Positions 7,508 through 14,189 of a stretch of 14,235 nucleotides of DNA are shown piece by piece. The stretch lies in the NCBI GenBank assembly GCA_900314165.1, contig OMUE01000079.1, forward strand, positions 1 to 14,235. The letters run 5' to 3'. The notes beneath the pieces are model-generated. The model had not been told where the DNA came from and did not search any database. It saw only the letters and a program-made list of their open reading frames with translations. Both the position numbers and the translations under genes were made by a program. Source of the stretch: an uncultured Acidaminococcus sp. (GTDB lineage Bacteria > Bacillota_C > Negativicutes > Acidaminococcales > Acidaminococcaceae). Every line of letters starts with the position of its first letter. Positions within the stretch are counted from its first letter, which is position 1.

Positions 7508-7999
7508 ATGGACGAAGCTGTACTGAAAAAGTATCTGGATGGCCAGGAATACATCCGGCTCCAGGTAAAGCAGGCAGAGCTGGCAGCGCCCCAGGGCACG
7601 GACCGGTATTTTGCCCTGCTGGCTTACATAGGCATGCATCCGGAATATGCCCGGAAATTCTGCGGGAGACTCTTGTTGACGTTCCACGAAGACTGCGGCA
7701 AATTCCTGTGGGAGAATGAGAAGGCCCGGGATTTTGTCCGGCACCTGGCGGACGCTTTTCCGTTCTTGCTGTACCTGGCGGAAAAAGAAGGGGAGACCCT
7801 GAAGCTTCTGGCCATCCTGGCCTGTGCGGATACGACCTTGGAAGGGGACAACCTGTCCATGGACAAGAAGCGCTTTGAAGCCTTTATCAAGCAGCAGCTG
7901 AAGGGCTTGCTGCTCATGTGTGAAAAGACGGGCCTGAGCCCGGAAAATGCCCAGAGCCTCCTAGAAGGCATCTACGAGTATTTCGGGCTGGCTGCCTGA
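7508..7999 (+). CDS. small helical protein of unknown function
   Basis: 163 residues, no recognised family. The ATG at 7508 is preferred over an upstream in-frame ATG at 7451. AAGGAGC (7495-7501) sits 6 bases ahead of it, and it begins 2 bases after the stop of the glycosyltransferase gene, the usual operon spacing. The protein is charged and leucine-rich (LLAYIGMHPEY, LLYLAEKEGETLKLLAIL), probably all-helical and cytosolic, with no signal peptide or membrane segment. Its coupling to the upstream gene suggests a function with it, but this is inference. No terminator lies directly after it; the first is the strong hairpin at 8133-8171. Confidence 0.7.
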   Translation: MDEAVLKKYLDGQEYIRLQVKQAELAAPQGTDRYFALLAYIGMHPEYARKFCGRLLLTFHEDCGKFLWENEKARDFVRHLADAFPFLLYLAEKEGETLKLLAILACADTTLEGDNLSMDKKRFEAFIKQQLKGLLLMCEKTGLSPENAQSLLEGIYEYFGLAA

Positions 8000-8032
8000 A
8001 TTTAATTTCACAATTACTTCAAGAATTCGCCC

Positions 8033-8060
8033 TTGGTTTGTCATACAAAGCAGGTATACT
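8033..8060 (+). promoter_or_regulatory. promoter of the structured RNA at 8067
   Basis: TTGGTT (8033-8038), a 16-base spacer and TATACT (8055-8060). The expected start of transcription, near 8067, is exactly where a stable hairpin begins (8068). No open reading frame with a ribosome binding site follows before the terminator. Confidence 0.6.
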
Positions 8061-8066
8061 TTAAAG

Positions 8067-8171
8067 CGTAGTAAGGATTACCCCTCCTTGCTACATCTTC
8101 CCCATCAAATCATCATAAACAACTTCCTTTCAGGAAAAAGCCCTCTGCTTCCCCAGCAGAGGGCTTTTTCC
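8067..8171 (+). ncRNA. candidate small regulatory RNA of about 105 nt
   Basis: Between a promoter (8033-8060) and a strong intrinsic terminator (8133-8171) lies a non-coding stretch with a clear architecture. Its 5' hairpin is 8068-8077 paired with 8085-8094: ten pairs, one of them U-G, with loop UUACCCC. An A/C/U-rich single-stranded linker (8095-8132) follows, and the 3' terminator hairpin closes it. CCCC occurs three times, each in a predicted unpaired place: the first loop (8081-8084), the linker (UUCCCCA, 8098-8104) and the terminator loop (UUCCCCA beginning at 8149, last A paired). Unpaired UCCC-type motifs are known from Gram-positive small RNAs such as staphylococcal RsaE, where they pair with Shine-Dalgarno sequences. 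Alternatively it could be the 3' untranslated end of the upstream operon. Confidence 0.6.
8133..8171 (+). terminator. strong intrinsic terminator
   Basis: Perfect 17-bp stem: 8133-8149 paired with 8155-8171, loop TCCCC. The outer part of the stem is A5/T5, so the T tract lies within the descending arm (TTTTT, 8165-8169). It would end both the candidate small RNA and read-through from the operon ending at 7999. Confidence 0.9.
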
Positions 8172-8175
8172 CGTG

Positions 8176-8204
8176 TTGACAGGCTTTGCACGACTCTATA
8201 CAAT
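8176..8204 (+). promoter_or_regulatory. near-consensus promoter of the phosphoesterase gene
   Basis: Perfect TTGACA (8176-8181), a 17-base spacer and TACAAT (8199-8204), starting 4 bases after the preceding terminator stem. Transcription should start near 8211, giving a leader of about 114 bases before the ATG at 8325. The first part of this leader is a GA-rich heptamer tract. Confidence 0.8.
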
Positions 8205-8208
8205 GGAA

Positions 8209-8250
8209 GTGAAAAGTGAAAGCGAAGAGCGAAGAGTAAAGAGTGAAGAG
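8209..8250 (+). repeat. six tandem degenerate heptamers, GA-rich, at the start of the phosphoesterase leader
   Basis: The tract reads as six units of seven bases: GTGAAAA, GTGAAAG, CGAAGAG, CGAAGAG, TAAAGAG, TGAAGAG. It begins at the predicted transcription start of the promoter at 8176-8204, so it would be the unstructured 5' end of the mRNA. It is followed by a small hairpin, GTCAGC-AAA-GCTGAC (8271-8285), and then the AAGGAG ribosome binding site (8311-8316). Another period-7 tract lies at 10663-10690. Confidence 0.7.
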
Positions 8251-8324: not shown

Positions 8325-9068
8325 ATGGCATTATATGCGTTAGGGGATCTCCATCTTTCCTTTCAGGTTCCTGATAAATCCATGGATTCCCTGGGTCCTG
8401 TGTGGGTAAACCATGTACAGAAGATCGAGAAGAACTGCCGGGAACTGGTGGGGCCGGAGGATACTCTCGTACTGACGGGGGACCATTCCTGGGGCCGGAA
8501 GCTGAGCCTGTGTGTGAAGGATCTGGCTTTTATTGAAAACCTGCCGGGCCGGAAGATCCTGCTGCGGGGCAATCATGATATGTTCTGGGAACCTCAGAAG
8601 ACGGATCGGCTGAACAAGCTGTATCAGGGCCGGCTGGAATTCCTCCAGAATAATTTCTATACGTATAAGGACTACGCTCTCGTAGGTACGAAGGGCTTTA
8701 CGTTTGAAGGCCCCTTCTATGTGGACCGCCTGGGACGGATCATGGGCTGGGACCAGGAAAAGGCGGAGCATTCCGTGAAACTGGTCCAGCGGGAGGCCAA
8801 GCGCCTGGAGGAATCCTTCCAGGCCGCCCGGAAGGCCGGCTATCGGAAGTTCATCATGTTCCTGCACTATCCGCCTACGAATATCCTGGAAATGGATAGC
8901 GTCTTTACCAGGATGGCCGAGCAGTACGGAGCCGAGCACGTGGTCTACTCCCATTGCCACGGGGAACATACGTTCCACGACAGCCATCGGGGCCTGTACC
9001 ATGGCATAGAGTACCATCTGGTGTCCGGGGATTACCTGGATTTCCGGCCGGAGAAGATTTTGGAGTAG
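8325..9068 (+). CDS. metallophosphoesterase (calcineurin-like), COG1768 type
   Basis: A 247-residue cytosolic phosphoesterase of the calcineurin-like superfamily. Metal-binding motifs in order: GDLH at 7-10, GDHSWG at 52-57, GNHD at 82-85, a histidine in LHYPP at 180-184, and H210-C-H212 near the C-terminus. In the last motif the usual GHxH is SHCH, Ser replacing Gly. This set matches the small 'predicted phosphohydrolase' group COG1768. Its physiological substrate is not known to me. The start is set by AAGGAG (8311-8316), 8 bases upstream, and by the strong promoter at 8176-8204. It appears monocistronic, ending before the bidirectional hairpin at 9296-9351. Confidence 0.85.
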   Translation: MALYALGDLHLSFQVPDKSMDSLGPVWVNHVQKIEKNCRELVGPEDTLVLTGDHSWGRKLSLCVKDLAFIENLPGRKILLRGNHDMFWEPQKTDRLNKLYQGRLEFLQNNFYTYKDYALVGTKGFTFEGPFYVDRLGRIMGWDQEKAEHSVKLVQREAKRLEESFQAARKAGYRKFIMFLHYPPTNILEMDSVFTRMAEQYGAEHVVYSHCHGEHTFHDSHRGLYHGIEYHLVSGDYLDFRPEKILE

Positions 9069-9351: not shown

Positions 9352-9479
9352 CTTGTGTTTACCGCCACTCGCAGATGCTCAATACTCTGAGTCAGCTTCT
9401 CCAGCTTCTCCTCCATGCGTACCAACAGGTACCAGGAGATCACCATAGGGAAGCCTGGATTGGGCTTTATTTTCCTTGC
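9345..9479 (-). pseudogene. yvrJ-like small membrane protein gene, 5' end missing
   Basis: Read leftwards from 9479 this frame gives GFPMVISWYLLVRMEEKLEKL followed by TQSIEHLRVAVNTRN and a stop at 9347-9345 (residue string split here). GFP, then a hydrophobic stretch, YLL-x-R-x-E-x-KLE and a short helix is the pattern of YvrJ-family proteins (PF12841), which are about 45-50 residues. The normal N-terminal 10 or so residues before GFP are absent. The frame is closed by TAA at 9482-9480, and no ATG, GTG or TTG precedes GFP. The first ATG (9446-9444) lies after GFP and lacks a ribosome binding site; from it the product would be 33 residues. The conserved part begins 11 bases after the Rpn stop, so the Rpn unit may have replaced the yvrJ 5' end. 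Confidence 0.55.
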
Positions 9480-10354
9480 TTACTTCCTTTAATGACTTCT
9501 TGGACCTCGTCTATCGTGAGATCTGTTCCAACCGCTATAGTTTGGAGAGGTACACCCAGAGAGAAGAGCCTTTGGACTGTTTTATGTTTTTCATTTGCCT
9601 CTCCTTCTTCAATCCCATCCAGTCTGGCCGTCAAAAGATGAGATTGTTCGTCCTTTATGGCTTTCTCTTTAGCCTCGTATTCCCGCCATAATTGCAGATC
9701 GCTGACAAATTTGTCTTCACTTTCTGCCACATCCTTTAAAATAGAATCCATTTCTGTCAGCTCCTTTCGATCGCGGTCAGATGTTTTCTTTGATAGATAG
9801 GCAATCCACCGATCTGACCGCTTCAGCTTCTTGATATCAGAGTAGTGGATTTTCTCCAGTTCAATAAAATGCATTTCAAAATGATCAACCAATCTGTCTT
9901 GCGGATGGACATCATTTGTAATGTGATACAGATGATGGAATTCGGCTTCATATTGTTCGAAGAAATCAAAGTCCATCAGGATAATGCTGATTACTTTATT
10001 CAGCTTATCATAGCTTTCTTTTTTCTGCAACTGACCGTCATAAACCCGGGACCAGTAGTAAAGGGCACGTTCAGCCATGTAGCGGTCTTTGCAAACTTGG
10101 ACTTCAATGTTGACCTTAGTGCCGGTGTCGGTAGTAGCCAAAATATCCAGAATAGCGGCTTTGCCATCAGCCATCTGAGAAAGTTTTTCTTTGTCTGCAA
10201 AGGTCAGGTCTGTGAACATAGCTTTACCGGATAAATCCAGTGTGGTGTTTAGGAAGTTAAGAGTGTAGTCCTTGCGTTCTTCACTGCCGAGGAGATACTT
10301 GAAAAAGATGTCGTTGATGCGGTTGAGATGGATTGGATGTTGAGTGTTAGTCAT
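9467..10354 (-). CDS. Rpn family recombination-promoting nuclease / PD-(D/E)XK putative transposase
   Basis: A 295-residue protein of the Rpn (PDDEXK_2, formerly transposase_31) family. E. coli relatives are DNA endonucleases that raise RecA-independent recombination. Visible core: NDIFFKYLLG at 14-23, the catalytic D70 in ILDILA, E84-x-Q86 in NIEVQV, then RALYYWSRVY at 96-105. The C-terminal third is charged and carries a short repeat-like helix region, ending TIDEVQEVIKG. The start at 10354 has AAAGGAAG 9 bases upstream on the minus strand. It is more AT-rich than its neighbours and the only complete gene on the minus strand, which together suggest acquisition. It is flanked by two copies of the composite repeat. 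No terminal inverted repeats were found. It looks intact. Confidence 0.85.
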   Translation of the reverse strand: MTNTQHPIHLNRINDIFFKYLLGSEERKDYTLNFLNTTLDLSGKAMFTDLTFADKEKLSQMADGKAAILDILATTDTGTKVNIEVQVCKDRYMAERALYYWSRVYDGQLQKKESYDKLNKVISIILMDFDFFEQYEAEFHHLYHITNDVHPQDRLVDHFEMHFIELEKIHYSDIKKLKRSDRWIAYLSKKTSDRDRKELTEMDSILKDVAESEDKFVSDLQLWREYEAKEKAIKDEQSHLLTARLDGIEEGEANEKHKTVQRLFSLGVPLQTIAVGTDLTIDEVQEVIKGSKQGK

Positions 10355-10907: not shown

Positions 10908-13900
10908 ATGAGTTCCAACTTTACTTTTTTACAGACAAAATTCGCGCCATTAGCTCATTTAGGAGAAATGGCCGAGCAATATTGCTATAGCGATCCTAAT
11001 TCCTGCCTCATGAAGATCGGCATGATGGGTGAAACGATTGTGAAAGCAATCTTCCATTATGACCGGATTGCTCTTCCACTGGAAGATAACGCTGTCAACC
11101 GTATCAATAAACTGCAGGAAGAAGACTATATTTCTAACGATATCGCCGATGTCCTTCATGTGATCCGCAAGGCACGGAACAAAGCTGTACACGATAATCT
11201 GGATTCCCAGCCTGTCTGTGCGCAGCTGCTGCCCATGATCTGGAGCGTCTGCCAGTGGTTTATGGAGGTCTATGGGGATTATAACTACCAGCCTTCCGGA
11301 CGCTTCGAGATGCCCCATGAGCGCCCTAAAGCGGAACTGAAGAAGGAATCCCGGGCTCAAAAAGTCCGGGACCAGGCCATCGCCGATACAGCCATTGAAA
11401 ACTTTGGCACCGTCGTCACGGCTACAGAACAGGAACGGAAGCAGCAGGCAAAGAAGGCCTCCCATAACCGCAATATTACGGAAGAAGAGACCCGCATGAT
11501 TATCGATGAGCAGCTGAACCGGGTAGGCTGGCTGGCAGATACCGTCAATCTGCGCTATGCCAGAGGCGCATGCCCAAAGAAAGGAGTCAATCAGGCTATT
11601 GCGGAATGGCCTGTCCAGAATGGGTATGCCGACTATGCCTTGTTTGCAGGACTGCAGCTGGTGGGCATCATAGAAGCCAAGCGGTGGGATACGGACGTGG
11701 TATCCATTATCGACCAACAGGCCACGGATTATCCAAAACTGATTCGTGAAGAGGATGTAAACTACGTAACAGGTCAATGGGGCGAGTATAAGGTTCCTTT
11801 TACTTTTGCCACCAATGGCCGCCGCTACATCAAACAGTACGAAGAAAAATCCGGCATCTGGTTCCGGGATCTGCGGGACCCTGCCAATGTTCCGAAAGCC
11901 CTTCCCGGCTGGTTCAGCCCCGAAGGCCTGCTGGACAAGCTGAAGGAACAGCCGGACCAGGCCCGGCAGAAGCTGGATAAGCTGCCCTACGATGAATTGC
12001 GGGATCCCAACGGACTGAACCTGCGGGACTATCAGATAGAAGCCATTGCAGCAGCGGAAAACGCTATAGAACAGGGGAAAAAATCTGTGCTGCTGGCCAT
12101 GGCTACCGGTACGGGCAAAACCCGGACCGTTCTGGGAATGATTTATCGCTTCCTGAAGACGAACCGCTTCCACCGGATCCTGTTCCTGGTGGACCGGAAT
12201 GTGCTGGGCTCCCAGGCTCTCACTACCTTCCAGGAAGTCCGGCTGGAGCAGATGCTGCCCCTGACTTCTATTTATAACGTACAAGGCCTGGACAAAGACG
12301 AATCTCTGGCCAAAGAGACACGGGTGCAGATTGCTACGGTCCAGAGCATGGTCCGGCGGATCCTCTATCATGAAGGGGAGGCAGGCTACGCCATTTCCGA
12401 CTTCGACCTGGTCATCATCGATGAGGCCCACAGAGGGTATATCCTGGACAAAGACATGACCCAGGAGCAGAGCCTGTACCGGGATGAAATGGATTACATC
12501 AGCAAATATCGCAGCGTCATGGAGTATTTCGATGCCGTGAAGATTGCCCTGACGGCAACACCCGCCCTCCATACCACTCAGATCTTCGGCTCTCCTGTCT
12601 ATACCTATTCCTATCGGGATGCGGTCATCGATGGCTATCTGGTGGACCATAATGTGCCCATCTCCCTGAAGACGAAACTGAATACGGCAGGCATCCATTA
12701 TAAGAAGGGGCAGGAAGTGGATCTCTTCGATCCCAATGAATATGAAGGCGTCAGCAGCTATGAAGTGCCCGATGACCTGAATTTCGATGTGGACCGGTTT
12801 AACCGGGAAATCATCCCGGAAGGCTTTAATAAGGCTGTGCTGCGGGAAATCTCCAACCGCATCGACCCTACGGACCGGGAAGCGGGCAAGACCCTGATCT
12901 ATGCGGTGAATGACCGGCATGCGGACATGATCGTGCGCATCTTGAAAGAATATTATGGCGAGCAGGGCATTCCCAGCGAAGCCGTCATGAAGATTACCGG
13001 ATCCATCGAAAATGGCAACCAGAAGAAGATCCAGGACGTGATCCGCCGGTTTAAAAACGAGCAGTATCCCAGCATCGTGGTGACCGTAGACCTTCTGACC
13101 ACAGGCATCGACGTACCGTCCATCACGAATCTGGTATTCCTGCGCCGGGTGAAGTCCAGGATCCTGTTCGAACAGATGCTGGGCCGGGCCACCAGGCTCT
13201 GTCCGGACATCCACAAAGACAAATTCGACATCTACGATGCCGTAGGGACCTATGCGTCCTTTGAGCCGGTGAATACCATGAAACCCGTAGTGGTCCAGCC
13301 CAAGAATACGTTCCATACCATGATCGAGGGCCTGAAAGACGGTTCCCAGACCCGGGAAGCCATTCAGGAAAAAATCGACCAGGTTGTGGCCAAGCTGCAG
13401 CGGAAACAGAAGAATGTGCAGCCGGACGACGAAGAAACCTTTGCCGTGGAGACCCATACAGTAAATATCCGGGACTTCATCAGGCAGATCCGGAAGGGTT
13501 CTCCGGAAGAAGCCAAGGCGAAGCTCATTGCTTCGGAACCGGCACTGACGGAACTGGAAAAAGCCAAACCGCCCCGGGCCCAGATTATTCTGGATCACCA
13601 GGACGACGTGGTGACAGAGGTATCCCCTACCTATGGCGCTGATGAAACGCCCCAGGATTATCTGGCAGAATTCACGAAATGGATCAATACCAACAAGAAT
13701 GACATCGCGGCCCTGAATCTGGTACTCACCAGCCCAAAGGACCTGACCTATAAGGAATTGAAGCAGCTGCGGAAACTGCTGGGCCAGCATGATTTCACGG
13801 AGACTCAGTTGAACACGGCCCTGAAGGGCGTGACGAAGAAGGACGTGGCTGCGGATATCATCAGCCTGATCCGCCGGGCTGCCATGGGGTCGCCCCTCAT

Positions 13901-14189
13901 CAGCCGGCAGGAGCGGATGCAGCGGGCCATTACGAAGATTAAGCGTGACCTACAGGAAACCGGGGGACTGACCAAGGCTCAGGAAAACTTTCTGACGAAA
14001 GTGGGCAATTACTTCGTGAAGGACGAGAACTATACCATCCATAAAGAGATGTTCACGGATGACCTTCGCTTCCAACGGGAAGGCGGCTTCAAACGGTATG
14101 ACAAACTGTTCAACAATCAGCTGGAAGCCGTGCTGGGCAAGCTGAATGACTATCTCTACGACGACACTGAAGGAGGAACTAGTGCATGA
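10908..14189 (+). CDS. hsdR: type I restriction enzyme, R subunit (HsdR) with DUF4145-like N-terminus
   Basis: A 1093-residue motor/nuclease subunit of a type I restriction-modification complex. It pulls unmodified DNA and cuts it. Domains in order: a DUF4145-like helical domain (about 14-125, with RKARNKAVHD at 87-96), then a linker. Next is a RecB-like nuclease with D242, E256-x-K258 and Q271-x-x-x-Y275. The superfamily 2 helicase follows: Walker A ATGTGKT at 399-405, DEAH at 505-508, TAT at 549-551, then TGIDVP and QMLGRATRL as motifs V and VI. A C-terminal EcoEI-type domain probably contacts HsdM. The ribosome binding site GGGAGGA precedes the ATG. All motifs are present and it looks functional. 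It overlaps hsdM by ATGA. Confidence 0.95.
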   Translation: MSSNFTFLQTKFAPLAHLGEMAEQYCYSDPNSCLMKIGMMGETIVKAIFHYDRIALPLEDNAVNRINKLQEEDYISNDIADVLHVIRKARNKAVHDNLDSQPVCAQLLPMIWSVCQWFMEVYGDYNYQPSGRFEMPHERPKAELKKESRAQKVRDQAIADTAIENFGTVVTATEQERKQQAKKASHNRNITEEETRMIIDEQLNRVGWLADTVNLRYARGACPKKGVNQAIAEWPVQNGYADYALFAGLQLVGIIEAKRWDTDVVSIIDQQATDYPKLIREEDVNYVTGQWGEYKVPFTFATNGRRYIKQYEEKSGIWFRDLRDPANVPKALPGWFSPEGLLDKLKEQPDQARQKLDKLPYDELRDPNGLNLRDYQIEAIAAAENAIEQGKKSVLLAMATGTGKTRTVLGMIYRFLKTNRFHRILFLVDRNVLGSQALTTFQEVRLEQMLPLTSIYNVQGLDKDESLAKETRVQIATVQSMVRRILYHEGEAGYAISDFDLVIIDEAHRGYILDKDMTQEQSLYRDEMDYISKYRSVMEYFDAVKIALTATPALHTTQIFGSPVYTYSYRDAVIDGYLVDHNVPISLKTKLNTAGIHYKKGQEVDLFDPNEYEGVSSYEVPDDLNFDVDRFNREIIPEGFNKAVLREISNRIDPTDREAGKTLIYAVNDRHADMIVRILKEYYGEQGIPSEAVMKITGSIENGNQKKIQDVIRRFKNEQYPSIVVTVDLLTTGIDVPSITNLVFLRRVKSRILFEQMLGRATRLCPDIHKDKFDIYDAVGTYASFEPVNTMKPVVVQPKNTFHTMIEGLKDGSQTREAIQEKIDQVVAKLQRKQKNVQPDDEETFAVETHTVNIRDFIRQIRKGSPEEAKAKLIASEPALTELEKAKPPRAQIILDHQDDVVTEVSPTYGADETPQDYLAEFTKWINTNKNDIAALNLVLTSPKDLTYKELKQLRKLLGQHDFTETQLNTALKGVTKKDVAADIISLIRRAAMGSPLISRQERMQRAITKIKRDLQETGGLTKAQENFLTKVGNYFVKDENYTIHKEMFTDDLRFQREGGFKRYDKLFNNQLEAVLGKLNDYLYDDTEGGTSA

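Follow-up and report, generated by a model that had tools for sequence, protein, structure and literature searches.

A small RNA gene of about 105 nt in an uncultured Acidaminococcus sp. appears to be the founding example of a conserved RNA family that we found listed nowhere. The gene lies in the window—the whole 14,235-nucleotide stretch of DNA that was analysed—and its sequence, predicted structure and covariation, its copy number in relatives, its promoter box and the presence of hfq in its hosts were established directly. From these we infer that it is transcribed, and that its product is probably a trans-acting RNA, activated by an OmpR-type response regulator and pairing at ribosome-binding sites, with the mRNA of an AGCS-type Na+:alanine symporter as best candidate target. 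The proposed mechanism has four steps: (i) an OmpR-type response regulator probably binds a TTTGyC-N5-TTTGyC direct repeat, which would replace a -35 element, and activates the gene, (ii) two hairpins would hold the RNA such that its C/U-rich linker is exposed, (iii) the linker, probably together with Hfq, would pair with ribosome-binding sites and start codons and thereby block translation, and (iv) the AGCS mRNA would be repressed.

The cassette is laid out in Table 1. The original prediction, made from the letters of the window, described a promoter, a hairpin, an unpaired linker, a terminator and a repeated TTCCCCA, and every one of its coordinates is correct. The predicted fold of the cassette RNA has a minimum free energy of -43.8 kcal/mol, compared with -14.8 +/- 2.7 kcal/mol in shuffles (z = -10.6; as low in 0 of 200). 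CCCC occurs in loop 1, in the linker and in the terminator loop. A simple consensus scan of the window listed neither the promoter nor the terminator of the cassette, because TTGGTT matches three of the six positions of TTGACA and the U run is paired within the stem. The terminator is also nearly palindromic and could therefore stop transcription on both strands; the covariance model (see below) matches the minus strand there too.

Table 1. Positions of the cassette parts and flanking genes in the window.
Feature	Position	Strand	Description	Basis
Small RNA gene	8067–8172	+	~105 nt	fold z -10.6; covariance models R1 and R2; genome searches
Direct-repeat, activator-like box	8026–8043	+	TTCGCC 8026–8031 and TTTGTC(A) 8037–8043; 11-bp period	aligned promoters; pattern search
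-35-like hexamer	8033–8038	+	TTGGTT; 16-nt spacer, then TATACT	read in window sequence
-10 element	8055–8060	+	TATACT; exactly 11 nt 3' of box	aligned promoters
Stem-loop 1	8068–8094	+	10 bp; arms 8068–8077/8085–8094; loop UUACCCC	covariation of helix 1
Single-stranded linker	8095–8132	+	core CUUCCCCAUCAAAUCAUCAUAAACAACUUCCUUU near-invariant; proposed pairing region	conservation; start affinity of 3' part
Intrinsic terminator	8133–8171	+	17 bp; arms 8133–8149/8155–8171; loop UCCCC	covariation of helix 2
TTCCCCA, two exact copies	8098–8104 and 8149–8155	+		window sequence
Upstream neighbour	7508–7999	+	163-aa protein; no Pfam match	near RNA in 12/22 regions, window included
Phosphoesterase gene	8325–9068		downstream of RNA	

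The modelled RNA structure exceeds chance, and its helices covary in relatives. The structure tested was the window's own fold. In an unfitted MAFFT alignment of 15 copies, 98.2% of cells are paired and 18 of the 26 pairs show double-sided change, neither of which was equalled in 500 shuffles; the covariation score of 0.562 (0.257 in shuffles) was likewise matched by 0/500. Sliding the structure along the same alignment lowers the paired fraction to 47–61%, a comparison biased in favour of the unslid structure because that was derived from the fold of the window itself. A model-fitted alignment of 35 copies—biased towards its model—shows double-sided change in 24/26 pairs. By helix, the counts are 6/10 pairs (15 unfitted copies) and 8/10 (35 fitted copies) for helix 1, and 12/16 and 16/16, respectively, for helix 2, the terminator. 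Unguided RNAalifold prediction on 34 copies recovered stem 1, with double-sided change in six of eight predicted pairs, and did not recover the terminator, whose arms are misaligned there. Folded singly, all eight of eight divergent copies form the 5' hairpin and the terminator; in two of them, the L091 and L092 paralogues, a further small hairpin forms.

Conservation of the unpaired segments is uneven. The linker carries UCCC in 35/35 copies and CAUCAUAAACARC in 29/35, and CCCC is found in the terminator loop of 33/35. Loop 1 has CCCC in only 24/35; of the 11 copies that lack it, ten form part of a second clade, in which the loop is shortened. Hence, although the three CCCC sites of the original prediction are all present in the window, only those of the linker and the terminator loop are near-universal. 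Compensatory changes in stem 1 alongside a conserved CCCC had been named as support for the gene, and loss of the hairpins and CCCC motifs in relatives as counting against it. The outcome is largely favourable to the gene: six of the ten stem 1 pairs do change on both sides, and both hairpins and two of the three CCCC sites are kept, but the CCCC of loop 1 is variable.

The distribution of the family was determined by several searches. A 151-bp DNA query matched both genomes to which the two nearest loci belong and, among the 59 genomes of the Acidaminococcus family, 30. Two covariance models were used: R1, consisting of 15 copies, and the broader R2, consisting of 35. R1 matched 33/63 genomes of the order (E <= 0.01), and R2 matched 42/380 genomes of the class (E <= 1e-3, under the stricter filter settings applied to large sets). 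By our own count, R2 gives E < 1e-10 in 31 of these 380, all 31 of which are among the 59 family genomes. The other 11 give weak matches (E 4e-5 to 8e-4) to C/U-rich, terminator-ended elements in which no promoter box could be seen by eye, and were left out of the family. Genome searches covered this one class, plus phage records, in which no match to the small RNA was found. Within the class searched, the RNA family thus appears confined to the family of Acidaminococcus, gut bacteria. The original prediction did not recognise the RNA as a member of any family, and nor does Rfam 15: no family reaches its gathering score anywhere in the window, and the nine matches obtained in the cassette region at E <= 5 all fall under their cut-offs.

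Outside the window's own genome, there are 42 strong copies in 31 genomes: a single copy in 25, and two to four in six (G001, G004, G007, G008, G021 and G031). Copies adjoin in tandem in G004, G007 and G008, as do two of the four in G021, which makes four of these six genomes. These multiple copies, and the varying neighbourhoods described below, could be expected of a repeat that moves or amplifies, like a MITE or REP element, and is maintained by transposition and not by function. We regard such an origin as barely credible, given that 25/31 genomes hold a single strong copy, the helices covary, and the promoter and linker are conserved.

Some elements related to the RNA in sequence have diverged from it. 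In the L193 copy (G017), the promoter and stem 1 are kept while much of the linker and one terminator arm are gone; it looks like a decayed gene. Two further loci are RNA-like: L194 (G033) has a promoter box, CATAAAAAACAATCCTTTC and a terminator, while L211 (G013), a weak R1 match, has CATCATCC, CTTTTCCTTTCG and a terminator. The weak model matches in other Negativicutes (L321, L322, L325, L327 and L316) resemble another RNA, consisting of CTCTTCCTTTCCATAACACAACATCACATCC followed by a terminator with a CCCC loop; L316 is a looser variant. The 70 nt upstream of the CTCTTCCTTTCCATAACACAACATCACATCC-type elements are nearly identical in four genomes.

The position of the RNA in the window, between the 163-aa gene and the phosphoesterase gene, leaves room for a reading in which the cassette is merely the terminator or 3' end of the upstream transcript, or the leader of the downstream gene; the 163-aa gene is, moreover, a common neighbour (Table 1). 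This we judge very improbable. Firstly, the RNA has its own conserved promoter box and -10 element. Secondly, promoter and terminator accompany it into differing neighbourhoods: other copies adjoin branched-chain amino acid transport genes, lgt and others, and some are in tandem. Thirdly, the phosphoesterase gene (whose best relative, in Acidaminococcus provencensis, is 79% identical, which marks the window as part of an Acidaminococcus-like genome) adjoins the RNA only in the window, and is 6 kb away in L001. A small RNA with a promoter and terminator of its own, as originally predicted, is supported by conservation: the box, the -10 and both helices are kept in relatives.

Two other features of the neighbourhood were recorded. 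Among the 22 regions examined, of which the window is one, 13 have a PMT_2-type glycosyltransferase gene close to the RNA; a response regulator and a histidine kinase are directly beside this gene in G032, and a histidine kinase is beside it in G043. In the window, a strong sigma-70-like promoter (TTGACA-17-TACAAT, 8176–8204, 11/12) starts five bases past the terminator and is followed by a purine-rich repetitive leader (~8205–8250); this promoter probably serves the phosphoesterase gene.

Aligned promoters (40 copies) give the family consensus TTTGCCCTTnnTTTGTCA-N11-TATACT, in which the spacing is constant in most copies and the box is a TTTGyC-N5-TTTGyC direct repeat. The originally predicted TTGGTT-16-TATACT is indeed present in the window, but the conserved element is the TTTGTCA half of the box and not a -35 TTGGTT. 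A search for the box pattern (up to three mismatches) returned 46 sites in 37/59 genomes, compared with three for a reversed-pattern control. By our own reading, 30 of these are at strong copies, one is at L193, one is at L194 and 14 are elsewhere. A position weight matrix for the box separates most promoters from background: 32 of 37 distinct promoters score 25.6–47.7 and five score 18.5 or less, while sites away from the RNA reach at most 18.0 in the DNA scanned (the window, 20 flank regions, two loci of 20 kb each and 400 kb of one genome). Ten of the 14 sites elsewhere lie a short distance ahead of genes, most of which seem by eye to begin with a signal peptide. The genes behind non-RNA boxes encode a secreted-looking family of 285–302 aa (seven sites, L195–L201, in genomes without a strong RNA copy), a DUF3221 protein, a SIMPL protein and a GDSL protein; one member of the 285–302-aa family was scanned against Pfam and gave no match. 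A direct repeat with such a layout ahead of a -10 element is typical of OmpR-type response regulators. The box layout and the genes at neighbouring sites suggest that an OmpR-type response regulator of envelope genes may bind the box.

The spacing of the box is also like that of the Pho box, and phosphate regulation was considered and rejected: among 18 pstS loci, the RNA-type half-site plus -10 was found in none, and TTwACA-N5-TTwACA in three. Against a clean rejection, TGTCAT is seen by eye in the pstS region of G043, and a lone TTGCCCTTTG in that of G004, in a listing of which several rows carry wrong ORFs.

The affinity of the RNA for gene starts was assessed with 330 starts from 20 stretches of 20 kb of one genome, with a gene finder trained on the window's genes; the stretch with the AGCS gene was added to this sample on purpose. 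The linker pairs with start windows at a mean of -13.7 kcal/mol, compared with -11.3 kcal/mol at +150, a start-specific excess matched by 1 of 60 shuffled linkers. This affinity is carried by the 3' part of the linker, AACUUCCUUUCA (0/60 shuffles as good). Over the same 330 starts, no start-specific affinity was found for loop 1 (19/60 shuffles as good), the 5' linker (56/60), the terminator loop (21/60) or the A/C-rich middle of the linker, AAAUCAUCAUAAACA (28/60). The idea of CCCC as a general anti-Shine-Dalgarno (SD) motif is thus not supported, the CCCC segments being no better than shuffles. Trans-acting regulation at ribosome-binding sites, which had been proposed on the strength of these segments, is probable all the same, with the affinity for starts lying in AACUUCCUUUCA instead. 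An hfq gene is present in 15/15 relatives checked.

A different use of the linker can be envisaged, in which the RNA binds not mRNAs but a protein, be it one like CsrA, some other RNA-binding protein or Hfq, for which it would serve as a sponge, with the near-invariant 30-nt linker as the protein site. For a seed, the linker would be unusually long and constant, and its middle alone lacks the start-specific affinity. We nevertheless consider protein binding unlikely as the main mode of action: the 3' linker is start-specific, the candidate target site co-occurs with the RNA, and CsrA sponges require repeated GGA in their loops, which the loops here do not have.

Under the preferred reading, pairing at ribosome-binding sites, targets should carry the complement of the linker. 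A search of 12 genomes for this complement, GGAAGTTGTTTATGATGA (up to three mismatches), returned 89 sites, compared with 42 for a reversed control; we count 18 of the 89 as copies of the RNA gene itself. Fourteen of the loci were inspected, several of which are inside genes. In G003, a one-mismatch site covers the SD and start of the AGCS Na+:alanine symporter gene, while the G007 orthologue has a GGAAGTTGTTTATGATGA-type site upstream of its SD. In one genome, G005, the start of a DUF819 transporter gene carries the complement site AAGGAAGGAAGTTGTTTATG; this putative target is a lead only.

The AGCS gene ranks only seventh of the 330 starts by duplex energy, and is the only one of these sampled genes (1/330) with GGGGAAG within 22 nt before its start. 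The idea that CCCC binds SD sequences gains support from this one candidate target, whose GGGGAAG fits CUUCCCC of the RNA. GGGGAAG precedes the AGCS start (i) in seven of nine Acidaminococcus-type genomes (missing in G001 and G007), which are not independent events because the species compared are related, (ii) in one of eight rows listed for other RNA-bearing genomes, groups (i) and (ii) together being the 17 listed of 18 loci, and (iii) in none of seven orthologues that a motif filter selected out of 14 genomes lacking a strong copy; two of these seven come from genomes with diverged RNA-like elements (G033 and G013). The pattern would fit co-evolution of the RNA and the AGCS site, with the caveat that the species are related; this mRNA is the best candidate target.

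The RNA resembles two known systems. The LhrC family of Listeria monocytogenes (LhrC1-5, Rli22 and Rli33-1) consists of RNAs of 105–121 nt with a stem-loop A, a single-stranded stretch and a terminator, and with UCCC in loop A, in the stretch and in the LhrC1-5 terminator loop (PMC4132741, PMC8079631). LhrC RNAs are multicopy, with four clustered, are under two-component control and target SDs, and LhrC1-5 bind Hfq (PMC4132741, PMC8079631). Our RNA shares with these the size, the two stem-loops with a single-stranded stretch between them, and UCCC in linker and terminator loop, whereas loop 1 in the window has ACCCC in place of UCCC and its CCCC is variable in the family. As to copy number, six genomes have two to four strong copies, as in the multicopy LhrC, and 25 have one. 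LhrC is induced by LisRK under envelope stress; here, the promoter box has the layout expected of an OmpR-type regulator. Where LhrC targets SDs by UCCC, the AGCS GGGGAAG would be the counterpart here; against this, the CCCC segments have no affinity for starts in general. Also unlike LhrC are the near-invariant 30-nt linker and the direct-repeat box just before the -10 (neither of which, nor the extra copies, was foreseen by the original prediction), and the host, which belongs to another Bacillota lineage. No LhrC match was obtained for the window region, either at the Rfam gathering score or among the nine matches at E <= 5; Rfam holds an LhrC model.

The second system is that of the CiaR-dependent csRNAs of streptococci. 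These are several similar RNAs of 87–151 nt, whose resemblance is highest where they are complementary to the ribosome-binding site and AUG, and whose promoters carry a TTTAAG-N5-TTTAAG repeat (PMC8186281). The 6-N5-6 direct-repeat promoter and the complementarity to ribosome-binding site and AUG are common to both, while the half-site is TTTGyC here and TTTAAG in the CiaR box. No csRNA was among the Rfam matches to the window, which is informative only if Rfam holds a csRNA model. RsaE and FsrA are named as further UCCC RNAs of Bacillota (PMC4132741). For RsaE/RoxS, FsrA and similar RNAs, a C-rich motif is shown or proposed to block the SD, and their linker differs from that of the cassette. 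An FsrA match to the window is fragmentary, within the terminator, at 12.6 bits against a cut-off of 80. By analogy, the cassette RNA would work like LhrC and the csRNAs; homology to either was not found, and it would form a new family of its own.

From Negativicutes, structured RNA candidates of another sort have been described (ldh2, ilvD and other motifs), and for the ilvD motif the authors allow for an sRNA role (PMC8632094). Acidaminococcus goes unmentioned in the main text of that report, and in that of one on oral ncRNAs (PMC7160235). More widely, in the open-licence titles and passages surveyed, no base-pairing small RNA is described for Acidaminococcus, for Phascolarctobacterium or for Negativicutes more broadly. 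With its covariance model, its promoter box and a candidate target that has a name, the family is a clearly delimited case for study. The family also suggests that diderm Firmicutes have evolved the LhrC/csRNA design anew: two-component control, a C/U-rich RNA and a block at the ribosome site.

A wider scenario is speculative and, taken whole, rather doubtful. The RNA would be a lineage-specific regulator of diderm Firmicutes, in which a glycosyltransferase-linked two-component system activates one to four RNA copies, whose entire linker complements SD, spacer and AUG, coupling envelope stress to Na+-driven alanine/glycine uptake; the weak elements of other Negativicutes would then be diverged relatives. 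Finally, further along the window (9467–10354 and 10908–14189), a PDDEXK_2 transposase-like gene on the minus strand adjoins a restriction-type helicase subunit (ResIII, EcoEI_R_C).
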